The translations under genes were made by a program, and so were the position numbers. The notes under the pieces were generated by a model. That model made no database searches and was not told the DNA's origin. It saw nothing but the letters and a program-made list of their open reading frames with translations. Below, in pieces: positions 37,701 to 62,789 of a stretch of DNA of 64,000 bases (its first letter is position 1; each line of letters starts with the position of its first letter). The stretch spans positions 294,501-358,500 of the forward strand of contig JAIGNY010004484.1 of assembly GCA_020152595.1 (NCBI GenBank). The letters are read 5' to 3'. The stretch comes from Chiridota heheva. Taxonomy: Eukaryota; Echinodermata; Holothuroidea; Apodida; Chiridotidae.

Positions 37701-40700
37701 TATTGCAATTGATGAAAGTAGCTTCAACAAACTTCAAGGTTGTATAAAAAAAAAAATCCTGATATGTTTCTGGAGACAAAGAAAGTGATTCTGTATAGGG
37801 TTATTTAGAAATTCATTTTGACTTTTAAGATAACTAGAACGAGATAGAAATAACTTTTGAGGTGTTGGTTAGCATTGGTGAGCCCTGAAAGAGTACAGGC
37901 TGTTACTAATCAGTACTATTAATTTCATTGACACTTTCATTCATGCATTATAACAAAATTGTATCAATTTAATAATATACTACCAAGTTTATTGCATCTT
38001 TCATGTCAAGTAGAGTATTTCTGGATGTGGTTCAAAATGATAAGAATTACTGTAAAATTTTAAAGTCCAAATGTCAAAGTCAAAAAGCTAGGGTAAATAG
38101 TGCACTTTTTGTGTGTTGGTGTTGTAATACATGCTTGTGTGTATCTGAACAAGGGTGTGCTATTAAATTCCATATTTGCATATGGCATTGCTAAAGGTTT
38201 TCTGCATTTTGTAAAAAGATTATCTCTCAGAACTTTGTAACCATTATTATGCATTTCCATTTGTATTCTCTTTCTGTACGTATAGTGCACTAGGGTTCAG
38301 TGGACTCCACCATTGAGGGAAAGCTTTGGGAATCCCATTTTAGTCCTACAGATGTTTATAGTTACTCATACCTTAAGGTGAGATTGCAAATTCATCTTTA
38401 TATTGAAGGTCAATTATTGTGTTAATGTGGACAGGAATATACAATAAAAATGAAAGTTTTTGATTGGTCTAAATATTTGCACATATACTGACAAAGTAAA
38501 TCCATAACCGCTGCCAAAGTGACATTACTAGGATGTATCAGAAAAACCGACACTGTCAAGCAATATTCTTGAGATGAGATTCCATCTTTAATGAGTGGAA
38601 AGAAAGATGGATTTGTCAAGAAAAGTCACAGAGCAACGGTTCCCAATTTTATGGTAGACATCAGAGATTCCTACCGTAGACATCAGAGATTTCTACCGTA
38701 GACGTCTGAGATTTCTACCGTAGACGTCAGAGATTTCTACCGTAGACGTCAGAGATTTCTACCGTAGACGTCAGAGATTTCTACCGTAGACGTCAGAGAT
38801 TTCTACCGTAGACGTCAGAGATTTCTACCGAGAGGCGTCAGAGATTTCTACCGAGACGCCAGAGATTTCTACCGTAGCGTCAGAGATTTCTACCGTAGAG
38901 CGTCAGAGATTTCTACCGTGAGGCGCCAGAGATTTCTACCGTGAGGCGCCAGAGATTTCTACCAGAGCGCCAGAGATTTCTACCGAGAGGCGTCAGAGAT
39001 TTCTACCGTGAGCGCCAGAGATTTCTACCGTGAGACGCCAGAGATTTCTACCGTGAGCGCCAGAGATTTCTACCGTGAGACGCCAGAGATTTCTACCGAG
39101 ACGCCAGAGATTTCTACCGACGCGTCAGAGATTTCTACCGAGAGGCGCCAGAGATTTCTACCGAGCGCCAGAGATTTCTACCGAGACGCCAGAGATTTCT
39201 ACCGAGACGTCAGAGATTTCTACAGTAGACGTCAGAGATTTCTACCGTAGACGTCAGAGATTTCTACCGTAGACGTCAGAGATTCCTACCGTAGACGTCA
39301 GAGATTCCTACCGTAGACGTCAGAGATTCCTACCGTGACGTCAGAGATTCCTACCGTAGACGTCAGAGATTTCTACCGCAGACGTCAGAGATTCCTACCG
39401 CAGACGTCAGAGATTCCTACCGCAGACGTCAGAGATTTCTACCGCAGACGTCAGAGATTTCTACCGCAGACGTCAGAGATTTCTACCGCAGACGTCAGAG
39501 ATTTCTACCGTAGACGTCAGAGATTTCTACCGTAGACGTCAGAGATTTCTACCGTGAGCGCCAGAGATTTCTACCGTGAGACGCCAGAGATTTCTACCGT
39601 GAGACGCCAGAGATTTCTACCGTAGACGTCAGAGATTTCTACCGTAGACGTCAGAGATTTCTACCGTAGACGTCAGAGATTTCTACCGTAGACGTCAGAG
39701 ATTTCTACCGTAGACGTCAGAGATTTCTACAGTAGACGTCAGAGATTTCTACCGTAGACGTCAGAGATTTCTACCGTAGACGTCAGAGATTTCTACCGTA
39801 GACGTCAGAGATTCCTACCGTAGACGTCAGAGATTCCTACCGTAGACGTCAGAGATTCCTACCGTGACGTCAGAGATTTCTACCGTAGACGTCAGAGATT
39901 TCTACCGCAGACGTCAGAGATTTCTACCGCAGACGTCAGAGATTCCTACCGCAGACGTCAGAGATTTCTACCGTAGACGTCAGAGATTTCTACCGTAGAC
40001 GTCAGAGATTTCTACCGTAGACAGATTTCTGCCATAAACATCAGAGATTTCTACCGTAGACAGATTTCTACCATAGACATTAGAGATTTCTACCGTAGAC
40101 ATCAGAGATTTCTACCATAGACATCAGAGATTTCTAGAGAGTGGTTGAAGCAGAGGTTAAATTTTTTTTTGCAAAAATTTTTATCTAGAAAATGGAGATG
40201 AATTTAATGTGTGGAGAGATGGCATGTAAGAGTTCTTTTTTGATAGGTGAGATCATACGAACATAGGAACCTGGCAGGGAATGCATTTGTAATGGTAATC
40301 AGATGACAACAGTTAAATTCTTATACCTTGTACATCTGATATTGTAATTATGTAATGGTACTGAGAAGTGAAAGGGATTGCTCGAGTGTACTTGAAAAAC
40401 ATTTAAGACAAAGACAATTTTGTAAATTCTCTCATATTTAATGAAATGTGTGCCTGACTAATGATTATAGATGGTAACATCATCTTAGTTTCATAACAGT
40501 AGTGAGTTTTACATATGCACTTCTATATGCATTTTTCAAACAGTGACTTTGTAAAATAATGCAGATTATGATATTTGTATCATTTCCAGATGTTTTCTTT
40601 CTAGGCCTACTTCTTTAACATTATTTCTTTTTCCAATTTTAAATTGATTTTCAGGGTATGCACGCCAGGATGGAAACACAGTATTGCCATTATGTTCCCA

Positions 40701-43700: not shown

Positions 43701-46700
43701 TTTTTAAACAATCATCAACGAGTTTTAGCAGTGCCGTACAGAGAGAATGCTTGGGGTGGAAACCAGATTGATTTTCATAGATAATATTAAATCTGGTCAG
43801 ATATGAATAAAAGTAATTAAAAACCTACTTTTCTAAAATCTTAGAGAGTACTGGTAAAATAGGGATTGGTTGATATTTTGTAACATCATTTAAAGACTTA
43901 AAAATGGGTATTACATTTGCTTCTTTCCATACACTAGGCATGCTATTTGTACTTACAGATAAGGTAATAATCTTAGTAATAGATGGTACAATAATATGCT
44001 TTGCGACTTTTAATATTTCGCAGCTTATAGCATTAAGACCAGTAGCTTTTTTGTATGACCTTTTGTCTGTTTTCTTGGCAACGAAAAGCTCAGTGATGTA
44101 GAGAATTTTAAATGACGGATTATTACCATCCCTAACATTTTCAGTAGTTGCATCATTATGATTATCAATACCAGTGATAACAGTGTCATTTTTTGGTGCA
44201 ATAGACTTGACAATAGAGGTAAAGAAAATATTAAATATTAAATTCATTAGCTATGTCTGTTGTTCCTTATTTCTTCACCTTCTTTAAGGATAGTAGCTGG
44301 CAGTGTACTCTTTTTATTAGGGATGATCGTTTTGAAAGTTTTCCAGACATTGTGTGGGTTTTCAGCTAGGCTTTCAGCAAGGCTTTTAGCAATATAGTTT
44401 GCTTTAGCCAGCCTGAGAGCACCAGTAACCTCATTACGCAAGGTTCTGTACCTTTGCCACTCTTTGGGATTGCTCATCTATCTAGCTGTTTGCAAGAGTT
44501 AATCTTGATTATTCATAAGGTTAACAATGTCACTGTTTATCCAGGGACATGCATTTTTTCTTACTCATATTTTTTCCTTAGGCATTGGTGCATGTTTGTC
44601 AAAGACACGCATAATTAATGAATACCATTTTGTTAATACTTTATCAACATTGTCATTCTCAAATATTGTGCACCAGTTGATGCTCAAGAGGTCTTGCAAA
44701 CTCATATCCTCATTAAAATCTTCAAAATGTCTATAAATTAATTAATTGCACTCTTTACTGGTGGATGTTATAACAATTACTGTAAATACAAGATAATGGT
44801 CACTAACCGATGTTGGAAAATCAACAAACAGCCATGGACAGCCATGAAGAGAACATGGATTGTTCGATTCCATTCTTGTAAGACACGATATCCCACACAA
44901 TCCTATTCATGTGAACACTGACCTTAATGCCATCTGTATCTCTATCTCCCTCCACAAAACCTTCACTCCTTGCATTATCTATCTTTCCCCGATGCCAACG
45001 TTCAGCCAACTAGCTTTAACAACATCATCTCTCAGCTCCTCTCCCCTTTTATCCTTCTTGGTGACTTCAAGACTCACAACCTCTTGTGGGGCTCCAATAC
45101 TACCATATCCAGAGGCAAGCTTGTCGGAAACACCTACCTTCACCCTGCCACAGGCTCCCTCATCTGTATTGACCTGTCTATCTGTTCCCCCAACCTCCTT
45201 AATTTTAGCTGGAAGGTCAATGCTGACCTCTGTGGTAGTGACCGTTACCCTCTCCTAATTCACTCCAACATTCAAGCCCCCACTGACCACACCCCCAACT
45301 GGAATTTTAAGAAAGCCAAGTGGCCCCTTTTCGAAACCCTCTGCAACTCTCACCTCTCCCTCCATCTCCTCGAGGGTGAGGAACCCATGTCAAACTTCAG
45401 TAACCTCCTTATCAAGATCGCCACCTGCTTCAATCCCAAAACTTCCAAACTTGCTAACTACCCTCCAACCCCTGGTTCAACGATGATTGTAAAACTGCCA
45501 TCAAAAACAGGAAAAAAGCCCTCAGGAACTCAAAACGAACCCGACCACTCACAACCTCAACCTCTTTCTCATCAGCCATACCAAAGCCAGGCGCACTATC
45601 AAGGACAGTAAAACCAAAACTTGGAACAACTTCATCTCTTCTCTTACCACCAACACCCTCTCCAAGAAAATTTGGAGTATGGTAAACAGCTTCCATGGCA
45701 GAATGGGCAAGTCTTCGATCTCCCATCTCTCCTGGAATGGTAATCTTTTCACCGGGAAAAGGGATATTGCTAACCCCCTTTCCACCTCTTTCAGCAACAT
45801 CTCGTCCTCTGCCAACTACTCCCAATGCTTTCAAAGCCAAAAAAGCTTGTGAATTATTACCCGGAGTATTACCTTTCCCTCCGACAACACCGAGAGCCAT
45901 AACACCCCTCTCACCCTATCTGAATTAAAGCAAGCCTTCCACAATGTTGGCTGCACCCCAATTGCCCAGATACGTTCCCTTCCAGTTTCTGAAACACCTC
46001 TCCAACAAGGCCACCGCTACCCTTCCCACCATCCTCAACTACATTTGGTCCTCCCACTCCTTTCCCCTTATCTGGAGGACAGCTATAATCACCCCTTCCC
46101 CAAACTAGGGAAGAACAGCACTGACCCATCCAGCTACCACGCTTCCTCTAACTCCTATCCCCATGAAGAGGGCCTCTCCCAAGGCAGCATCCTCTCCACT
46201 ATTCTCTTCAACCAGAGCATTAACAACATCACGAACAACCTTGGCCCCAACATCAAATGTGCCTTCTACGTGGATGACTTCACCATCTCCTATTCCTCCC
46301 CTAGCTTTTCGCTTGTCAGAAATATGCTCCAACTTAGCCTCAACTGGCTGCAAGACTGGTGCAACAATAACGGTTTTAGATTCTCCAAGGACAAGACAGT
46401 CTGCATGCACTTCTGTCATTTCAACAACTTTCACCCCAACCCGAACCTCGTACTTTATGGCAATCGCATCCCTAAAGTTGACCACACTAAATTCCTGGGT
46501 CTAACCCTAGACCCCAAGCTCTCCTATAAGCAAAACATCACCAACATGAAACAGAAATGCAACAGCTCCCTCAACATTCTCCGCCTCCTCTCCAACACCA
46601 CTTGGGGTGCAGACCCCCATGCTCTCTTCAAAATCTTCAATCTCACCATTCGTGCCAAGCTCGACTGTGGCAATACAACTCTTACCTCAACCACATTAAC

Positions 46701-49700
46701 ACCATCCAAAATGAAGCCCTCAGGCTTTGCCTACATGACCTCCTCCATCACCGGCCTTCACATGGAAGCCAATGAATCCCCCTTTCTGCTAAGGTGTAGA
46801 AAGCTTAGCCTTTTCTACGTTTTTTTCCTTCAATCACTCCCGATACATGCTAAGAACTCATTGTATTTACTTCAAGTTATACCTTACCTTCCATGCTATA
46901 ATAATGCAATCTGGTCACACGACCTGATTCTAACGCACTTCTAACCGACCCTAAAAGACGCAGTAGCCAGCCAAGCCCTGACCTCCACTCTTTTTCAGCG
47001 CGTTGTTGCCACTAACATCGCTGAAAACTGGTCATTTTTATTTTATTTTTAATTAACCTTTCTAACTCTTTTCTCTTTGGCAGCTTCTACCTGGAGGGTT
47101 TTTTACGCTGCCCGTTCTCATCTGGTTCGCCTTTTCAAGTCTTCCGAGATAAGGGTGAGGTAGCCATGGGTCCGAGATTTCTTCGGCCGACCTACACGAC
47201 TTTACCCGTGTAGCCTACACTAGGATAGCGGGTTTTTGTCTCCATTCGTACAAAGCGAGTGGCTAGTTCGAGAGCGTCCTACTCTCGTGGTGGGTGTTTT
47301 AAGTCCTAGAGCACAAGTTGTGCCTGTCTAGGGGACCTCTCGCCCCGGGAATTAGTCTATTTCTCCCTTAGCCCCACCCGCCTCGAGGTGACCCTAGCGT
47401 TATACTATGTATAGTGTTTAGCACGTTAGGATATTTTAGTACACCTTCTCGTATGCATTAGGCCAATTTCGATTTTGGCGCATGCGCATTGGGTCGTAGT
47501 CACCGCTGGGTAAACGTGGGGTCGCCCTGTAACAACTCTAGGGAGCTACAGTTGTTACAAGCAAGCTTATTTTCGTTTTCACGTTAACAGCATATGAATA
47601 TTTTTATTTTTCTTACACAGATTTGAGATAAAATATTTAATTTTCAGGATTGAAATTGGGGTGTTGGAGAGACCGTGGGTGGGTCTCTCCGACGACCTAA
47701 TTACAGGGAAAATAATTTTTCCTTTTTATCTTTACAGACCTCAAGTACACGGTGGTTGGTGTTTCCCACGCTACCCGGCGCTTGTAAAGTCATTACGTTG
47801 GATCGTTTTTCGGGTTTCTAAAGTTTTTCAGATAGAAAATTTTTTCGTTTAAATTTTTTCTCTTAAAGCAAGTGTTGTTGTTCTGTTTAGAATGCTATGC
47901 CTCGTCTCTCTTTAGCGTGTCCGTAAGATCATAGTTACTTTGCCGTATTTAGGTTTGTACGCATGGACATACGTTCTTCTCTTAAGAAATTTATTTTTCA
48001 GTGAAAATTTTTTCTGTTTAAGAAAGTTTTGATGTTCTGTTTAGACTGCTATGCCTCGTCTCTCTTTAGCGTGTCCGTAAGATCATACTTACTTTGCCGT
48101 ATTTGTGTATGTACGCATGGATATATGTTCTTCTCTTTTCAGATATAAAAGAAATTTACTGAGAAGGTTACGCTCTTAGAGGTGTTGCGCCTAGAGCGGT
48201 AACGGTAAGAGAGAGAGAGAGAGAGAGAGATAACCTCTTAGGGGCGTTAACGCGTCGCCTAAGTTGTAGTAAGATCCTATTGATGGGTCGATAAGGTTCA
48301 GTTGGACGGTCCCAGACGGTTCCGCAGCTCTATTTGCGGACATAGTGCGGTTCCGGGGGCCGGTTCCATAAACACGGTTCCATAAACACGGTTCCATACG
48401 GTTCCGTTGGACAGTCCCTGACGGTTCCGCAGCTCTATTTGCGGGCATTGTGCGGTTCCGGGGACGGTTCCATACGGTTCCGGGAGTCCATACGGTTCCG
48501 CAGCCCGTTGTTACGGGGCGGACGGTTCCATTGGACGGTTCCGTGATCCATACGGTTCCGCGGCCCGTTGTTACGGGGCGGACGGTTCCATTGGACGGTT
48601 CCATACGGTTCCGGCCCGTTGTTACGGGCGGACGGTTCCATACGGTTCCGCGGCCTGTGTTTACACGGTCCGTATTTAACAGATTAACGCATAGTATGCG
48701 GTTTAATCGTTATACCCACTAGCTACAAGCTACGTGGTCAGGTGACAGGTGACATTCTTAAAAAGAAGTATAGCATTGGCAGCTATTTTCTTCTTGGTCC
48801 CATAGCCATTAGCTACGCAGTTCCACGGCTCGTGTGAACGCATTTAAGACTGTCACGTTGAAGCGTTATAAGTTCCGTATTTATTTTCACCAGTATCATG
48901 GACATGGAGGACAGGTCCCCGAGTGTCGATGTTTTACACACCCAGGATGTCCCGCGATGCGTAGCGTGCAAACGCTTCTTTAAATTACGCTCCGGTGACA
49001 TCCATCTCACGTGTTATGCGTGCAGATTATGCTGCGAGTCAAATCCCTGTACTCTTTGCAGCGATTGGGATCTAGCGGCGTGGTCGGAGCACAGACTCCA
49101 CCGCGACCGGTACTTTCAAAGAGCGGCGGAGAAAGTGGAGAAGCGACGGTCCGATAGGCCCTCTTCGTCTTCCCCCCCGCCGCCGCCACCCAGGCTTAAA
49201 GTGCACCCACCTCCCGTTCCGGGAGGCGCGGCCGCCGCCCGCTCTCAGCGGGGCACCTCTTGAAGGGCCCCCTCAACTGAGCAAGCGTACGCTAACACGT
49301 ACTCTAGTGGTGCCTAACACTGTGTCGGAGCCCTCCCCTCCCGTCTCCCCGTTAGGGTCTCCCGAAGAGCGAGGCAGACCCCGGAGGAGGGACAGGGATC
49401 GGGACAGTGCACACAAGGAGAGGCAGAGTCAACGTCACAGGTCCTCTTCCTCATCCTCTTCCTCATCCTCCCCTGAGCATAGGAGGAGACATAGGAAGCG
49501 GCAGGAAAGTCAGGGCCACCCCTTCGAGGATCCCGCTTTTCAGGACACACTCAAGAAAACACTTGAGACTTTGGTGTCGCAGGCTCTGGAGCGGAGACTA
49601 TCGTCTCCTGCTTTTCACCCCCCCGGCAGCTGCCACTGCCGCGGCTTGACACCCCCCTGACCCTGAGTTCTTGGAGGAGGATGCCCTCGACATCTACCCC

Positions 49701-52700
49701 TCGGGAGAGGAAGTCGATTTTCTGGACGGCGCGGGAGAATCCCCGATGCACGGGACTCCTCCCGCCGCCCCGGTTCCAGTCGTCCCCAGTGCCGATCTTA
49801 CGATGCCGTTTGCACCGGATATGGCCTCCGTATCCTACCAAATATCGGACGAGTCTCAACGTAGACTGCTAAGCTCAGCCCCAAGGGATGCTACGCCACC
49901 GGCTAAGAATTTCCCCATTGATGCCTCCCTGATCTACAGGATTAGACATTAGGCTAGGGTCCCGGATAGGGACTGGGCGGCCTTCAACCGGGACGTTGAT
50001 CGGGCCACACAGGTCCGGCCTACGGATTTTCGGGAGGTCATACGGCCTCCCGGAGGCAGTGTGGCAACTCCTCCGCCAACCGGCGAGCGGCACCGCAGCT
50101 GTGTCTGGCTTGGACAAGGCTCCAAAATTTCTGGATCCTGCGGTCCAGCGGAGGGAAGCTTCCCTATTAGCTGTCGACCGGGCCGTCCGACGGGGTTATA
50201 AGTACCAGGCCCTTGCCGTATGGGTAACAGAAGGCTTAGACTCGGTCTTGCACAGGCATCTTCCGGCCGACGTCCTTACACATACCCTGCCTCTGTTAAC
50301 TGGACTCTCGGATTTGCTCGACGCGACAGTTGACCAACTTGCCCGAGCCTCCACTAAGACGGTCCGGGAGAGACGCGAGAATATTCTCCCTCTCCTTGGA
50401 CTCTCGGCCGTCACTCAGGCGGACGTTCGGCGGTTGCCAACTGAGGGTCGGGACCTATTTGCTGGTCACTTCCGAGATGTTCTGTCGCGCCAAGCTGGCC
50501 GCCAGGACGATCTTCGGAAGACTCAGAAGCTGTTAGCGAAGCAAAGCCTTTCTCTTCTCTTCCCACTCATCGCCACCCTTCAACCCCCGTTTAGCGGGGC
50601 CGGGGTGCGGCTAGCCGGCGACGCTTCCGACGTCGCAGTGCCACTGTCACGGCGCCCTCTTCAGCTCCTCCCTCTCGTCAGGAGTCCACTTTGTGGACCA
50701 GCAGAGGGGCAGGTGCGGGGACCAGTCGACGCTCCTTCCCCGCTGCACGCAGAGCGGGTACCTCTTCCCGAGGGAAGGGGAAGGCCAGGGGCCGGCGTTT
50801 TTGACCCACCCCCGACTGCCCCCGTTGAATGGGGCTTCAGTCGGGGGGCGTCTACAGGAATTTTCAGAGGCTTGGGAGAGTATCACCACCGACAAGTGGG
50901 TGCTCCGAACCATTCGGCAGGGTTACCGTCTAGAGTTCACGTCTCCCCCGCCTCAGGGAGGGGTCTTTCGACCCACTCCCACGCCTCGTCTGGGCGACCA
51001 CACCGAGTTGTTGAGGTCAGAAATCGGGGAGTTGCTGGCGAAGAACGCCATCACCTTCATCCCGAACCCTCCCAGGAACCTCGTAATGTCCACGTTTTTT
51101 CTCGCCCCCAAGAAGGGGAACAAGTGGCGCCCGATAATCAATCTCAGGCCACTCAACAGGTTCATCCGACCATTGAAGTTCAAGATGGAGACTCTTCGCT
51201 CCATCCTCCCTCAGTTGACGAGGGGCCTGTGGGCCACCTCCGTCGACCTCGCGGACGCATATCTCCATGTGCCGATGTTCGAGGAACACAGGCGTTTTCT
51301 GGCGTTCCAATTTGAGGGAATGACGTACACGTTCAGGGCGTTGCCCTTCGGCTTTCGACTGCCCCAGGGTCTTCACCGGATTACGAGGGTTCTAGCGGCC
51401 TTCTTACGAAGGCAAGGCATCCGAATCTTTATGTACCTCGACGACTGGCTGATCGTTGCGATAGACGCAGCCACCGTCGCGAGACACACGAATGTGGTCA
51501 TACGGGTGGCACAGGACTTAGGGTGGGTGATCAACCTCGCCAAATCCAACCTTGTTCCGTCTCAGACTCCCACTTTTCTGGGGCGGTCCTGGATTTTCCT
51601 CGCGGTCGTATTCGGCCGACGGCGGAACGGATCCTTGCCGTGAGGGCGGGAGCCGGCGTCCTTCTCTCGTTACCCGGCCTCGCCGGCGAGAGCCTGGCTG
51701 GTATTCTTGGGGTACCTAGCCAGCCTCGTAGATGTGGTCCCCATGTGCAGGTTTTACATGCGGGATCTACAATTTCATCTACTGAGTCATTTCGTACCAT
51801 CCAGGAGAGACCTCAGCGTCCTCGTTCCCGACGCTGGCGGTGGTCCCCACATTTAGTGGTGGTGCGTCCACTCTCACCTGTCACAGGGAGCGATTTTCCG
51901 CCCGTCAGACCCTCGATGTCGGTGGTGACCGATGCGTCTTTGACGGGGTGGGGAGCGCATTTAGCGTGGTCCCAGGTCGCGGGATTTTGGACGGGCGCTT
52001 GTTGCGATCGGCACATCAATCTGTTGGAACTAGAGGCGGTAAGCCGGGCTCTTGTTCGCTTCCTACCTCAGGTCCGGAACAAGACTGTTCTCATACGCAC
52101 GGACAACACCACGGTAGTGGCGTTTATCAACAGACAGGGAGGCACGAGATCCAGGAGCCTTTGGATCTTAGCCAAGTCCCTTCTGTCTTGGTGCATGTAG
52201 AACAAGGTCACGCTCCAGGCGGTCCACCTACCAGGCACGGAGAACACGATTGCAGATCTGTTGTCCCGCCTCCGGGGAGCCCCCACAGAGTGGGCTCTTC
52301 TCCCGCGGGTGGCCGAAGTGATCTGCTTAAGCTTCGGTCTCCCGGACGTGGATCTGTTCGCGTCCGTGGACAACCACAAGCTACCAATTGTTTGCGCTCT
52401 CACACCCGACTTGAGAGTCTGGGCGGTAGACGCGTTCATGATCAGGTGGACCCACTTCGTGGGCTACGCCTTCCCGCCGTTTGCTCTCGTGCCGAGAGTA
52501 CTGAACAAGGTGGTGTCCGATCAGTGTTCCATGTTTCTTCTGGTGGCTCCCAATTGGCCCGGCCAACTGTGGTTCCCTCAGCTGCTCCATCTTGTCGCAG
52601 GTTTCCCGTAACGAACTTCCGGTCACGGACGAGTTAGTCTCCATACCGGGTTCGGCGAGCTGCACCACAATCCAAGAGCGCTCCATTTGACTGTGTGGCC

Positions 52701-55700
52701 TCTATCCGCGAACCCTTGTGTCGCAAGGTCTTTCGAGGCGGCTGCCCAAGTGGCGGCCTGTAGCCGGAGATCTTCCACTTTGGGCATGTATGCTTCCAGA
52801 CTCGGAATGTTCAGAGGCTGGTGCCGGATAGATCGGTTTCTCCGCATACGGCGCCTCTTGGTGACGAGCGGACTTTTTGTTGGTCCAGTTTAATCTGAAT
52901 AAGTCCATCAATACGGTCAAGGGGTTCAGAACGGCCATAGCGGCTATCCACCGGGGCTTCCTAGACGGCTCGACTGTCACTGACGCGCAGCCTCTGGAAC
53001 GTTGATTAAGGGTATGTTCTTGCAACGGCCTTCAGTTCGGAACCTAGCTCCCCCTTGGGATATGCAGGTGGTCCTCGAGACTTTGGCACGGGCTCCGTTT
53101 GAGCCTCTGCCGGATTGTCCTCTCAAGGAACTGACGATCAAAACTGTGTTTTACTCTCCGCAGCCTCGGCTAGGCGGAGGGGCTCTTCACGCCGCTTTCC
53201 CTCAAAGAGGGTCATATTCGCTTTGAATCGGGGGGCGTTCGTCTCGTGCCCGACCCGGCCTTCTTAGCAAAGAATCAGACGGTCAATTTTTACCAGAACC
53301 TATTTTCCTTCCGCCGCTCGCTACGTTTTCTGACACGACAGAGGACAAGGTCTGGTGTCCTGTTCGGTGTCTCAAACACTATATCAAGCGTACACAACCT
53401 TTTCGGAAGGACGTTACCGCTCTTTTTGTGTCCTTCCAACAGCCGCATCGCGCTGTCTCGCGTGATACGATTTCACGCTGGATTGTTCAGGCGATCACGT
53501 ATAATAGGTCCGCGTTGTTCGCAGAACGTTCGGTTCACGCGCACCAGGTACGAGGCATAGCTGCGTCAATTGCGCTTTTTGGTGGGATTCCCCTTCACAA
53601 GATCCTTCGTGCTGCCGTGTGGAAAACGCCAGCCACGTTCGTCTCAGCTTATCTGGTGGATATTCCGGACTTTCAGGGCGGAGTTGCACGGGCCGTACTT
53701 TCTGGAAGACGACCACCCTCTTCTTAAGGTGGGTGTTCTTTTCTTATTCCCGTTCTTTTGAAGTTGTTTACGTTATTTGTCTTAACGCGTTTTCGTTCCT
53801 TCATTTTCACTAACGTATAATTTCGCCATTGTTCGGGCTCTGGTTATTTCGTTTGTTTACTCTAACGAAACTTTGCCGTTGTTTTGGCGATTCTTCTTTC
53901 GTTCTTTTCCGACGGAATTTTTGCCGCTTTTTGGCGATTTCGTTCGTTACGCTTTACTGACGCGGTTCTGTTGTTTTCTGCTTAGTTTACCTTTACAGAC
54001 GGTTTGTTCACTTCATGCTTTCTGACCCGCTCCGGCCCTCTGCCGAACTTGGTGAGTTTTCATCATGCCGTTTTGAGCGGAGTTTACAGTTTGTTTCTGT
54101 TCACTGTTGGGTTGCGTTTGCGTGTTTTTCACGTATGTGTCACCATTGTTCTGTTGACGTTTTACCTCAGTTATTTTCCGCAGGGTGTTCTATGTTTCCT
54201 TGCCATAACTTGTAGTGGGTTGCTATTTCTAATAGTTCCTATTCAGAGGTCTTTCGTCCTTACGGGGAGAAGGAATTTAGTCCCTTACGGGGGTCTTCGA
54301 CTAAGTGCGAGTGCAGTACCAGCCTTAAAAAAAAAAAAAAAAAATGTGTGCTTCGGTCTGAACTCCCTTCCTTCCTTTCCTCGGTTGCAATCTGATTGCA
54401 TTATTATAGCATGGAAGGTAAGGTATAACTTGAAGTAAATTTACCCCGCTAAGCGTAGCGGGGATATTTACGAGAGTTATGCTTACCTTCCATGCTATAA
54501 TTATGCAATCTGGTCACACGACCTGATTCTAACGCACTTCTAACCGACCCTAAAAGACGCAGTAGCCAGCCAAGCCCTGACCTCCATAATACCTCTGTAC
54601 CACCTCACTCAACATTCCACCGAGGCCTGAACGAGAGGGGAGGCGGGCGGGATGCATGGAAGGTAAGTATAACTCTCGTAAATATCCCCGCTACGCTTAG
54701 CGGGGTAAATTTACTTTAAGTATGATATCATCAGTAAATGAGACTGCAGAAATTGAGCTAAGATTGTATATTACACTGCATATCATTGTGTTCATATTCT
54801 ATTTTGAAAATATATGAACAATTAAATTAGATCCCAAAACAACTTCAACTGTTTCTTTCACACTGTTTGATTGCTGTTGAAGATTTGTTAAAGTTTACTG
54901 TTAGTAGATATGAATGGTTCTGCTAAGGAGAACAGGTAGCTCAGTTGGCAGAGCACACGACTGAGGCTCGGTCAAGTCTAACTCGATATTTCCACATCCA
55001 TGTAGACAGATATGCCAAACGTTAAAGCGGAAGTATTTTGTCTGCAGCTCCTCATTCAGCTGTTTAGAGAGGTGGCAATGGTTGAATGGTGCACACTGTC
55101 CTTTGGAGTAGATGTTAAGCTGTTGGCCCTGACGACAGGACAGTTACCCCCATGTAAACTTTATGTTAATTCACTTTCTTTTCTGATCTGGGCTGCGCTG
55201 ATTCGTCGGCAGCCTGAGAACTTGACTAGCAGCGCTGTGGTCAACATGGAATGGCGTGGCATAAAAGCCTGTTGTATGTATGTATATGTTAAACTGCAAG
55301 ACATTGCTTGCAAAGTAAGACAGCTTAATAGTTCTTAGCTAATTGTATTATTCATTTGTCACAAATATTCAGTTGATCTTCTTCTTCTTCTCAATAGCTG
55401 GGCTTGGTTTGCAGTTACATCCTCCTGTTTGGTAATGAGATGCTGTTGACATCATTCTTTGCTTCCTGCCTTATCACTCTGTGGGTATGTTTGTATGCTT
55501 TCATATCAGCAGACCTAATGTACTTACTGTTTATAGACCTTTTCAAATCTAAATAGACAATTTCCATAAAACAAAATAATGTCATGTGGCCGAAATTGAT
55601 GTCCATAACAGACCATTTATATGAGGGGGGTGGGGATGGGAGGGGGGAATCTTATGTATCAATCAAATACTAGAGGATTCTTGGCTGTCTGCACAAGTGA

Positions 55701-58448: not shown

Positions 58449-58514
58449 GTAAGTTTTTTACAGAAGTTTTGAAAAACCTAGCACAGGATATCCTCTTGAT
58501 TTTCACCATATATC

Positions 58515-59236
58515 CCTTCTATTGAATCCTTTGACTGTGGACACTATAAAGACCATGACAGGGCTGATGCAGCCGCTAAGCTTGCCCTCAACCTCCTCTT
58601 TACCCCTTTTCCCAAAACCCTCTCTGACATCAAACCGCTTATCGCTTCCCTTGTTCGTGACTGCTGGCAAACCTCATGGAACTCCCAAATTGATAACAAA
58701 CTCTATGTCATCCAGCCCACAATCCCGATCAAATCCACCATCAACAACCTCTCTCGTATCGACAATGTTCATATTATCCGTCTTAGAATTGGTCACACCC
58801 ACCTTACTCACTCCCACCTCCTTATTGGTTCCCCCCCCCAACCCCTCTGTAACAATTGCCACTGCATCCTCACTATCCATCACCTTCTCCTTGCTTGCCC
58901 CCTGTACAACCTTCCCAGAGCTTCCCTCGCTCCCCACAACTCAATTGCTGAGTTCTTTCAAAAAATTCCTCCGGATAAAATTATCTCCTTCCTTCATCAT
59001 GCTTCCCTTTACAACCATATTTAATTCTCCTCTTCTACTTCCTCCCTACTTTGTTTTGTTTCACCCATGCACCTCCTCTCTCGATCACAGCTTTTTGACT
59101 TTTGTTCTTGAATTTCTCTCATTCTCTCCCTGTTTTCTTTTCTTCCTACCTTTAAAATGATCTGACCTCTCAGGCACAATTTGACCCTCGTTGTCATGGT
59201 TCCGTTAAGACCTCATCAAACAAACAAACAAACTAT
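58515..59236 (+). mobile_element. I-like LINE 3' end with RNase H tail and (CAAA)n
   Basis: Reads DHDRADAAAKLALNLLF, the C-terminal motif of the RNase H found in I-clade elements, then TWQTSWNSQIDNKLY-like text, HIIRLRIGHTHLTHSHLL and CNNCHCILTIHHLLLACPLY, a CCHC-type end. The 3' tail is CAAACAAACAAACAAAC at 59218-59236. It begins about 65 bp after DPY19L exon 12. It may be the same family as 44825-46860 but is a separate insertion. Confidence 0.75.
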
Positions 59237-61018: not shown

Positions 61019-62032
61019 CTAATTGCAATTTTGATCAAAATTATGCCTCTTGTTGGCTAGCTGTATTTCCTTTTTGCCGTCTCTGGTGTCGTGACAGAGT
61101 AAATCGGTACGCCCGTCGCCATTGAAATCTCCCATAATGAGCTCACGATTAGGCTCCCGACACCAGCCGTTTTGAGTTGTCCACTCTGCTGCTTCACTAA
61201 AGTTGCCCGCAGAGTTAGCATAGGTGATCTTTAGTGACCCACTTCCTGTTGTATGGCAGAGAAGGTCACTCTTACCATCATGATTGAAATCTCCTATGTG
61301 GGTTGTCTGTCCGTGCAAGTGACACCAACTTATGGGAGCATGCCAGCCTGTTCCATTGAATTGACCATTTACACTGTATGAAATATATATGTGTCCATTT
61401 GAGTTTTGGCACAACATGTCCATACGACCATCCCCATTGAAGTCACCAAGAAAAGGCACATTACCTAAACACCATTCAAGATTCCTTTGCCAGCTTGTAC
61501 CATGATCAAAGTGACCAGCATCATTGGCATAAGAAATCCATTTGTAGCCATTAGAGGGATTGTGGCACAGCATGTCATCTCTACCATCCCCATTGAAATC
61601 ACCCACTAAGAGCTTTGATGGTTCAGCACACCAACCCTCCTTATGCCAACCTGTCCAATCAGAAAAGTCACCACCAGCAGAGGCATATGCTATCCAATTC
61701 TCTCCTGAACTTTTGCTATGACACATTAAATCCTTCTTTTGATCCCCATTAAAGTCTCCAAGATGAAGTTCTCCAGTGTCACACCAAGTAGTTGCTTCAT
61801 GCCAATCAGTTTCCACAAATTTGCCACAATGTTTGGCGTAAGAGAGCATTTTATTACCACGTTTATTGCAGTACATGTCATCCATGTCATCCCCATTGAA
61901 ATCTCCCACGTAAACCACCCTTTCTTGACCTACACACCATCTCATGTCAAGATCCCAATTAAGGCAGCAAACATTGTGAGGTGATGTTACGTAGAAATAC
62001 AGCAAACTTGTCAGGATGAATCTACCCGCCAT
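61019..62032 (-). CDS. Secreted FG-GAP/VCBS six-repeat beta-propeller protein, intronless
   Basis: A single uninterrupted 337-codon frame on the minus strand. The start at 62032 is preferred over ATGs at 62098 and 62068 because its context (GCAATGG) is good and it directly precedes a signal peptide (MAGRFILTSLLYFYVTS). Six GDFNGD-type motifs lie at residues 43, 92, 144, 196, 247 and 301, 49-54 residues apart. Each continues as D-x-x-D-L/M-x-C-H and is followed by an I-x-Y-A strand, a G-x-F turn and a WC pair. The DFNGDGxxD loops are calcium-binding in FG-GAP/VCBS propellers, and the regular Cys suggest inter-strand disulfides. No transmembrane helix follows, so it is likely extracellular, perhaps a lectin-like propeller; that role is inference. 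It lies antisense after DPY19L exon 12 and is probably nested within that gene. Lack of introns is unusual beside its neighbours. Confidence 0.9.
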   Translation of the reverse strand: MAGRFILTSLLYFYVTSPHNVCCLNWDLDMRWCVGQERVVYVGDFNGDDMDDMYCNKRGNKMLSYAKHCGKFVETDWHEATTWCDTGELHLGDFNGDQKKDLMCHSKSSGENWIAYASAGGDFSDWTGWHKEGWCAEPSKLLVGDFNGDGRDDMLCHNPSNGYKWISYANDAGHFDHGTSWQRNLEWCLGNVPFLGDFNGDGRMDMLCQNSNGHIYISYSVNGQFNGTGWHAPISWCHLHGQTTHIGDFNHDGKSDLLCHTTGSGSLKITYANSAGNFSEAAEWTTQNGWCREPNRELIMGDFNGDGRTDLLCHDTRDGKKEIQLANKRHNFDQNCN

Positions 62033-62789
62033 TGCTGTGTACATAAAGAGGGAAGTAAGTAAGGACATGATCTTGCTGTGAAATGGTACAAAATACATGT
62101 GAAAGATTCACTAGTCAATAATGGAAATGAATTTGAATTTGAATAGTGGAAATGTATTTCTCTAGTGTCCAGGTAGCAACAATTTAAATTTAATTGGAAG
62201 AATGGAAGATTTTTTTATAAACCATGAAAATATCAAAAAATTGTTTAGATATTGTGGCATTACAAGAAGAAAAAATGCAGTATCCTCAAAGATCTATGGA
62301 CAGGTAGCAACAGGTCTAACTTATTGGGAGAACATATAAAATGAACCATGAAAATAGCCAAAAGTTATATCAAAACTGTTAAAAATTGATTGTTTTACAG
62401 CATTTTGAATTTTAAAGCCTTATTATCTCCTTTCCAACAAAGTTGGTTAAAAGTGGATTTAGCATCTTTACCATACATTCGTTCTCTGCCCATCTGTACA
62501 CATGCATTGTTACTTATTTGGAACAAAATATTTTGCCCTTGGAAAGGTGTTCCAACTATTTTTGTGTTTCGCTTGAAAGAAAATTTCAATAATGGAGACT
62601 TGTCTTAAAAGAACTTACAACAATATATTCTTGACATGAATCGCAATTAAAATGGTTGTGTCTGGCTTGAAAGAAAAGTCAAAACAATAGAACCTCTTGC
62701 CTCAAAAGAAGTTAAAATTAAAAGTCTTGGGCATGAAAAGAAATATAAACAATAAGTGCTGGCTTGAATCGAGAGGAAACATAAAAGAC

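Follow-up and report, generated by a model that had tools for sequence, protein, structure and literature searches.

How a DIRS retrotransposon comes to carry a direct copy of its left end close to its right end is the question raised by a 64,000-nt stretch of the Chiridota heheva genome (contig JAIGNY010004484.1, positions 294,501 to 358,500; hereafter the window, in whose coordinates positions are given). The window holds one DIRS element (46865 to about 54711, 7.8 kb), which its sequence identifies as a DIRS1-type tyrosine-recombinase retrotransposon. The first-pass annotation had recognized a DIRS element with an internal complementary region (ICR), as the reverse transcriptase (RT), the tyrosine recombinase (YR) and a 101/102 ICR match bear out, and had also noted a 104-bp block of the left end that recurs in direct orientation near the right end (103/104; 104/105 when begun at 46883). 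It took this block for an extra A1/A2 repeat like those of PAT and Ngaro elements; we read it instead as the ordinary right inverted terminal repeat (ITR), turned round together with its 67-nt spacer.

An inverted segment between the ICR and the right end

The features of the two ends are as follows, with S standing for the inverted segment and L001 for a relative described below.

46865..46911, plus strand: outer left end, complementary to the left half of the ICR (47/47)
46875..46987, plus strand: left ITR as kept in the window copy; other copies are about 24 nt longer at the inner edge
54394..54495, plus strand: ICR, the reverse complement of the right end joined to the left end (101/102)
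54482..54586, plus strand: A2, the direct repeat of the first-pass annotation, read here as the flipped right ITR (104/105)
54496..54653, minus strand: S, the right ITR block plus the 67-nt spacer (158 nt; in-silico flip), unflipped in L001 and in most classified copies
54587..54653, minus strand: spacer, beside the ICR in unflipped copies and beside the right end in the window copy
54654..54711, plus strand: right end with right extension, ending at the ATT core

DIRS1-like elements have an ICR complementary to both ends, a right extension, ATT ends, and a short motif that recurs in the two ITRs and in each half of the ICR (Piednoel et al. 2011, PMC3266345). In the window element, the left end (46865-46911) and 54394-54440 are exact reverse complements (47/47, where 46/46 had been reported), and 54654-54716 is the reverse complement of 54433-54495 at 62/63 positions, as reported, or 66/68 when extended to 54721; the ICR is thus complementary to both ends, and its halves overlap at a short core. 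The complement of the right end is part of the ICR, so S is bracketed by a pair of inverted repeats, B' in the ICR (54428-54495) and B at the right end (54654-54721). As found, the right and left ends match in inverted orientation over 22 nt only (score 18), so this copy lacks the long inverted terminal repeats of a DIRS1-like element. Turning S round in silico extends the inverted match of the right ITR to 113 nt (score 107), and we conclude, on this evidence from the sequence, that the whole stretch lying between ICR half and right end, right ITR and spacer together, has been inverted. Two other sources of the direct block, a long target-site duplication and part of the neighboring long interspersed nuclear element (LINE), were rejected, since the ICR matches the left end exactly from 46865 and the block is present in the other copies examined.

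An 8-base motif had been described as shared by both termini. This holds for the window copy but not for the family, whose core appears to be only about 2-3 bp because the right ends of other copies agree only up to GGGGTAA and then mostly read ATT or ATA; the last ~5 bases (54712-54716) are more likely target sequence than element. The family ITR is longer than 104 bp, as other left ends have about 24 more nt that also begin the spacer. We also observe that the window copy is without about 21 nt at the inner edge of the left ITR (46987/46988) that are present in most other left ends. By eye, no target-site duplication beyond the short core is seen in the 25-nt flanks of 10 of the 11 flipped copies found in this genome (the right flank of L083 is another element); no empty insertion sites came to light.

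Outside this genome, we find a related DIRS element, L001, on a 5.4-kb contig that ends within the right ITR and is assigned to a gill symbiont of Bathymodiolus brooksi; the contig is probably host mussel DNA contaminating the symbiont assembly. L001 is near-complete, with long open frames. The window RT, YR and the stretch between them align to its frames (tblastn, 7e-116 for pol and 6e-33 for YR), with 44% identity over 218 aa in the RT, the same order of parts and the same C-rich block after the ICR, whereas its S is unflipped: the ICR is followed by the C-rich block and then by the inverted end of the left ITR (17/17 before the contig stops). The window spacer fits this C-rich block at 15/16 positions only when S is flipped, a score reached by 0/2000 shuffles and by 6/3979 random 158-nt window pieces (either strand, any position). 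No relatives were found in viral_contigs, plasmids or phages.

Recurrence of the inversion among copies in the genome

Other copies were sought in the C. heheva assembly (1.1 Gb in 3744 contigs, some of several Mb). With the 104-bp block as query, 40 of 1649 first-look candidates were scored and the surroundings of all 40 fetched; 15/15 other right ends with an ICR are unflipped, in the order ICR, reversed spacer, reversed ITR and right end (C1630 has a right end without ICR, and the partial or diverged ends in L010, L011 and L025 were left uncounted). A second query, the ICR plus the direct block, gave 40 scored places out of 1809 candidates, from which 30 loci were cut out: 11 are flipped (the window copy and 10 others), 9 are plain unflipped, 8 are unflipped with left-end sequence of another element joined, one is without ICR and one is the locus C559. 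All 10 other flipped full-length copies have the left end and leader in the expected orientation, and the 200-nt flanks of the flipped copies are unlike each other: local scores reach at most 24 for left flanks, between AT repeats, and 20 for right flanks, among which that of C2443, a joined element, was left out. A further probable flip, C1767, is known from its second-search match pattern only and stands outside these counts.

For a census blind to the orientation of S, the 3' region served as query and gave 40 hits, of which 34 could be classified (C1987 from coordinates), one was unclassifiable (the second place in C3356) and five were not fetched. Two of the 34, the window copy and C2229, are flipped, and the other 32 are unflipped, so that inverted terminal repeats of the DIRS1 type are present in 32/34 classified copies. 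The first-pass annotation had proposed that other copies lacking the direct repeat would mark it as a local rearrangement of this copy. The repeat is indeed lacking in 32 of the 34 classified copies, yet the 10 further flipped copies show that it is no peculiarity of the window copy, and the trees described next speak against a lineage.

To place the flips among their relatives, we built a tree for 36 right ends, using the first 40 nt of the ICR and as much as 1200 nt of the sequence upstream of it, with S excluded and C559 (L070) left out. Orientation changes 10 times on this tree (8-10 in bootstraps), close to the shuffled-label mean of 9.7; strongly supported branches alone force at least 4 changes, and without one long-branch row there are 10 changes, at least 5 of them forced. 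A single flipped clade is rejected in each of three tests, with p-AU 2e-83 for the full set of 35 rows, 1.5e-5 for the 20 rows of one subfamily and 2.2e-5 for the 15 rows of the other. Branches are often short or weak, the number of changes would be inflated by exchange between copies, and the second-subfamily rows (8 flipped, 7 unflipped) come from a query favoring flips and end-to-end joins. Because flipped and unflipped copies interleave and a single flipped clade is rejected, the trees indicate that the inversion of S arose repeatedly and that the flipped copies are not one clade.

Eight of the flipped copies (the L077-L084 group) belong to this second subfamily, which has the leader and the last ~470 nt in common with the window element. 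No blastn match to the window RT/YR was found within them, among the matches listed, which show 5 of the 8 copies, and the sequences suggest that this subfamily is probably non-autonomous. Flips occur whether or not a copy has an RT/YR match. In some second-subfamily copies the leader minisatellite looks expanded.

Right ends joined to left-end sequence of another element, resembling a circle junction, occur at 9/30 loci of the second search, whose query favors such joins (L054-L057, L059-L062 and L067, on C2443, C124, C437, C2326, C1019, C1844, C867, C3182 and C1700). Eight of them are unflipped and one (C2443) is flipped; the leader is also visible in 5/9, and about 11 nt are missing at the join in C1700. 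Two ICRs and their 3' regions are opposed across a single S at about 1335-1728 of the C559 locus, an arrangement like that expected from recombination of one element with another's ICR, or from its insertion there.

How the segment may be turned round

The explanation that we favor, with somewhat better than even confidence, is that the element's own tyrosine recombinase recombines the circle junction with the ICR. In published accounts, the ICR serves as template for completing the ends of a circular intermediate, which the recombinase integrates (PMC3266345, PMC5633606). In Dictyostelium, a circular DIRS-1 copy is reported in an agnA deletion strain. A double-stranded circular intermediate would hold two recombinase sites in opposite orientation, the junction (right end, core and left end) and the ICR; recombination between them would invert one arc of the circle relative to the other, and integration at the junction would then read as S flipped with B' and B unchanged. 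On a circle only the flipped form would result, and this single product type fits the first search: an inverted coding body would put the leader beside a full ICR, an arrangement that occurs at 0/40 ITR-block places. An integrated copy could undergo the same reaction, between its ICR and its right end. The end-to-end joined elements suggest that ends are used as recombination sites, with which the reported preference of DIRS-1 for its own copies agrees. Flips in copies both with and without an RT/YR match are what a trans-acting enzyme would allow, and the ICR may serve as a recombination site besides its role as template.

Several observations weigh against a recombinase-driven flip. No circle has been seen, and the YR frame is broken in the window copy. 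For want of a consistent difference between B and B', the crossover is not placeable at the core rather than elsewhere in the arms. The flip rate in the RT/YR subfamily is low (1/33 classified besides the window copy), and C559, where a 3' region stands reversed beside left-end sequence, is readable as an inverted body. Host recombination or template switching between short inverted repeats would, moreover, give the same product. Finally, the repeat pairs within copies disagree on age: left and right ITR differ by 16 substitutions in 10 flipped versus 2 in 9 unflipped copies (p = 0.026), while B and B' differ by 3 in flipped versus 12 in unflipped copies (p = 0.065). The unflipped set was picked by ITR likeness to the window copy and the flipped set by ICR likeness, and the single-pair differences may reflect this selection; flipped copies may also be older, or may no longer be evening out their ITRs.

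Inversion of S by the host after insertion, through homologous recombination, cruciform processing or replication template switching between the 60-68-nt repeats B' and B, is the possibility we take most seriously among the others, although we consider it rather unlikely. The arms are near-identical and 158 nt apart, and the region folds strongly (the right-hand 328 nt at z = -15 versus 100 shuffles). The larger ITR difference in flipped copies is what would be expected if flips gather with age, and it lowers the odds of the recombinase somewhat in favor of the host. Divergence summed over three repeat pairs is, however, not higher in flipped copies (medians of 0.010 in 10 flipped versus 0.0096 in 9 unflipped, Mann-Whitney, p = 0.44 with the L083 row misaligned by a joined second element; p = 0.66 without L083 and 0.71 with the window copy added), although these tests are small and the copies were picked by similarity. 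C2229, too, is flipped yet has a terminal branch of 0.0018. Since three flipped copies have no ITR substitutions over 104 to 106 positions, at least some flips appear to be recent.

A single event could look like many if RT template switching or conversion passed a once-flipped right end between copies, and exchange between copies is known in retroelements, which counts for such transfer, as does the fact that our tree was built from sequence 5' of S. We nevertheless regard it as improbable, because well-aligned flipped copies have a right ITR only 0-5 substitutions away from the left ITR of the same copy, and the ITRs of C1610 are alike at 106/106 positions yet only about 91% like those of the window copy; later homogenization could mask the origin of such likeness. 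Still more improbable is a flipped master lineage, in which the flipped copies descend by replication from one or two flips of S: the sisters L053 and L058, both flipped (support 99/95), may share one flip, but the rejection of one clade overall and per subfamily, with the label as scattered as when shuffled, largely refutes it. An assembly artifact with S misoriented is very unlikely indeed; inverted repeats of 48-68 nt can mislead short-read assembly, whereas 3744 contigs for 1.1 Gb, some of them several Mb long, suggest long reads, and the flip is seen at 11 separate places. The intermediate or unusual lineage proposed in the first-pass annotation, combining an ICR with a PAT/Ngaro-like direct repeat, is hardly credible, for although direct A1/A2 blocks and an ICR are both present and the quasi-palindromic junction yields an 83% direct B-like match, spacer and ITR move together, most classified relatives are plain DIRS1-type, and the flipped copies form no lineage.

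Coding parts, setting and known systems

The remaining parts of the window element, of which the leader is unusually long, are the following.

46988..48897, plus strand: leader, long and non-coding, containing a 154-bp tandem pair (47839-48137) and a CGGTTCC minisatellite (about 48285-48664)
48898..49263, plus strand: first open frame after the leader, with GAG-like placement
50900..51862, plus strand: RT region, frame broken; RVT_1 at 8.8e-17; 39% to L001 pol
51928..52734, plus strand: RNase H and methyltransferase-like region, with internal stops; 45% to L001 pol
52868..53727, plus strand: YR region, frame broken; 36% to L001 YR

The combination of RT/RNase H and tyrosine recombinase that marks DIRS1-like elements is seen here through RVT_1 and through tblastn of the L001 proteins. 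RNase H matches are below Pfam's cut-offs in both the window element and L001, as is Phage_integrase in the YR region (0.043 in the window piece and 5.4e-05 in L001). Part of 51928..52734 we presume to be a methyltransferase, a name for which Pfam gives no match there in the window piece or in L001 pol. The frame at 48898..49263 has no Pfam match and no match to the L001 GAG, and Rfam and tRNA scans of the window found nothing.

The element inserted just 3' of a decayed LINE reverse transcriptase; this LINE (44928-46864) is interrupted by the DIRS left end, and an open frame at 58453-59160 resembles, by eye, the 3' part of such a LINE. Elsewhere in the window we observe a 362-aa open frame with four FG-GAP repeats (61019-62107, minus strand; Pfam 3.8e-33) and a satellite of about 68 copies of a 22-bp unit (38654-40136).

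The right ITR of Dictyostelium DIRS-1 acts as a strong promoter of antisense RNA, and small interfering RNAs arise from opposing ITRs (PMC4482531). By analogy, the orientation of S could change silencing. A bolder extension, which we think unlikely, is that the right ITR of DIRS elements would be a recombinase-driven invertible promoter, whose usual state fires antisense into the element and feeds silencing, and whose flipped state points outward, sparing the element antisense RNA and possibly driving neighbors; the same reaction would be the missing one-step link from inverted to direct repeats in the evolution of tyrosine-recombinase retrotransposons. No description of a flip of S was found in the open-license papers searched. 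In bacterial invertible promoters and phase-variation segments, a short segment is flipped between inverted sites by site-specific recombinases. The likeness to S is one of layout; here the enzyme is inferred, and a switch function is not implied.

Compared with the DIRS1-like elements tabled by Piednoel et al. (PMC3266345), the window element has ICR sizes (47 and 68) within the tabled ranges of 24-110 and 36-89, whereas it is longer, at about 7.8 kb versus 3793-6283 bp in 28 tabled elements, and its right ITR is direct rather than inverted. PAT, Ngaro and VIPER have split direct repeats in the order A1-B1-A2-B2 (PMC4157794, PMC6681497). The window copy resembles these elements in its direct A1/A2, but it has an ICR, and the B that precedes A2 copies the right end in inverted, not direct, orientation. 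In a split-direct-repeat element B1 is a direct copy of B2, and B1-A2 equals the circle junction; here, the stretch before A2 matches the junction at 87/105 columns directly and at 101/102 in the inverted orientation of an ICR, and the 83% direct likeness appears to reflect a near-palindromic junction. Since this stretch is the inverted junction copy, the window element is not PAT/Ngaro by its repeats. Szitenberg et al. 2014 state that intermediates between the inverted- and split-direct-repeat plans have not been observed. With A1 and A2 direct, the flipped form reads as a single-step neighbor of the split-direct-repeat plan: one 158-nt inversion, in 11 full-length copies of one genome, turns inverted terminal repeats direct while the ICR is kept, which would offer a simple route between two end designs.

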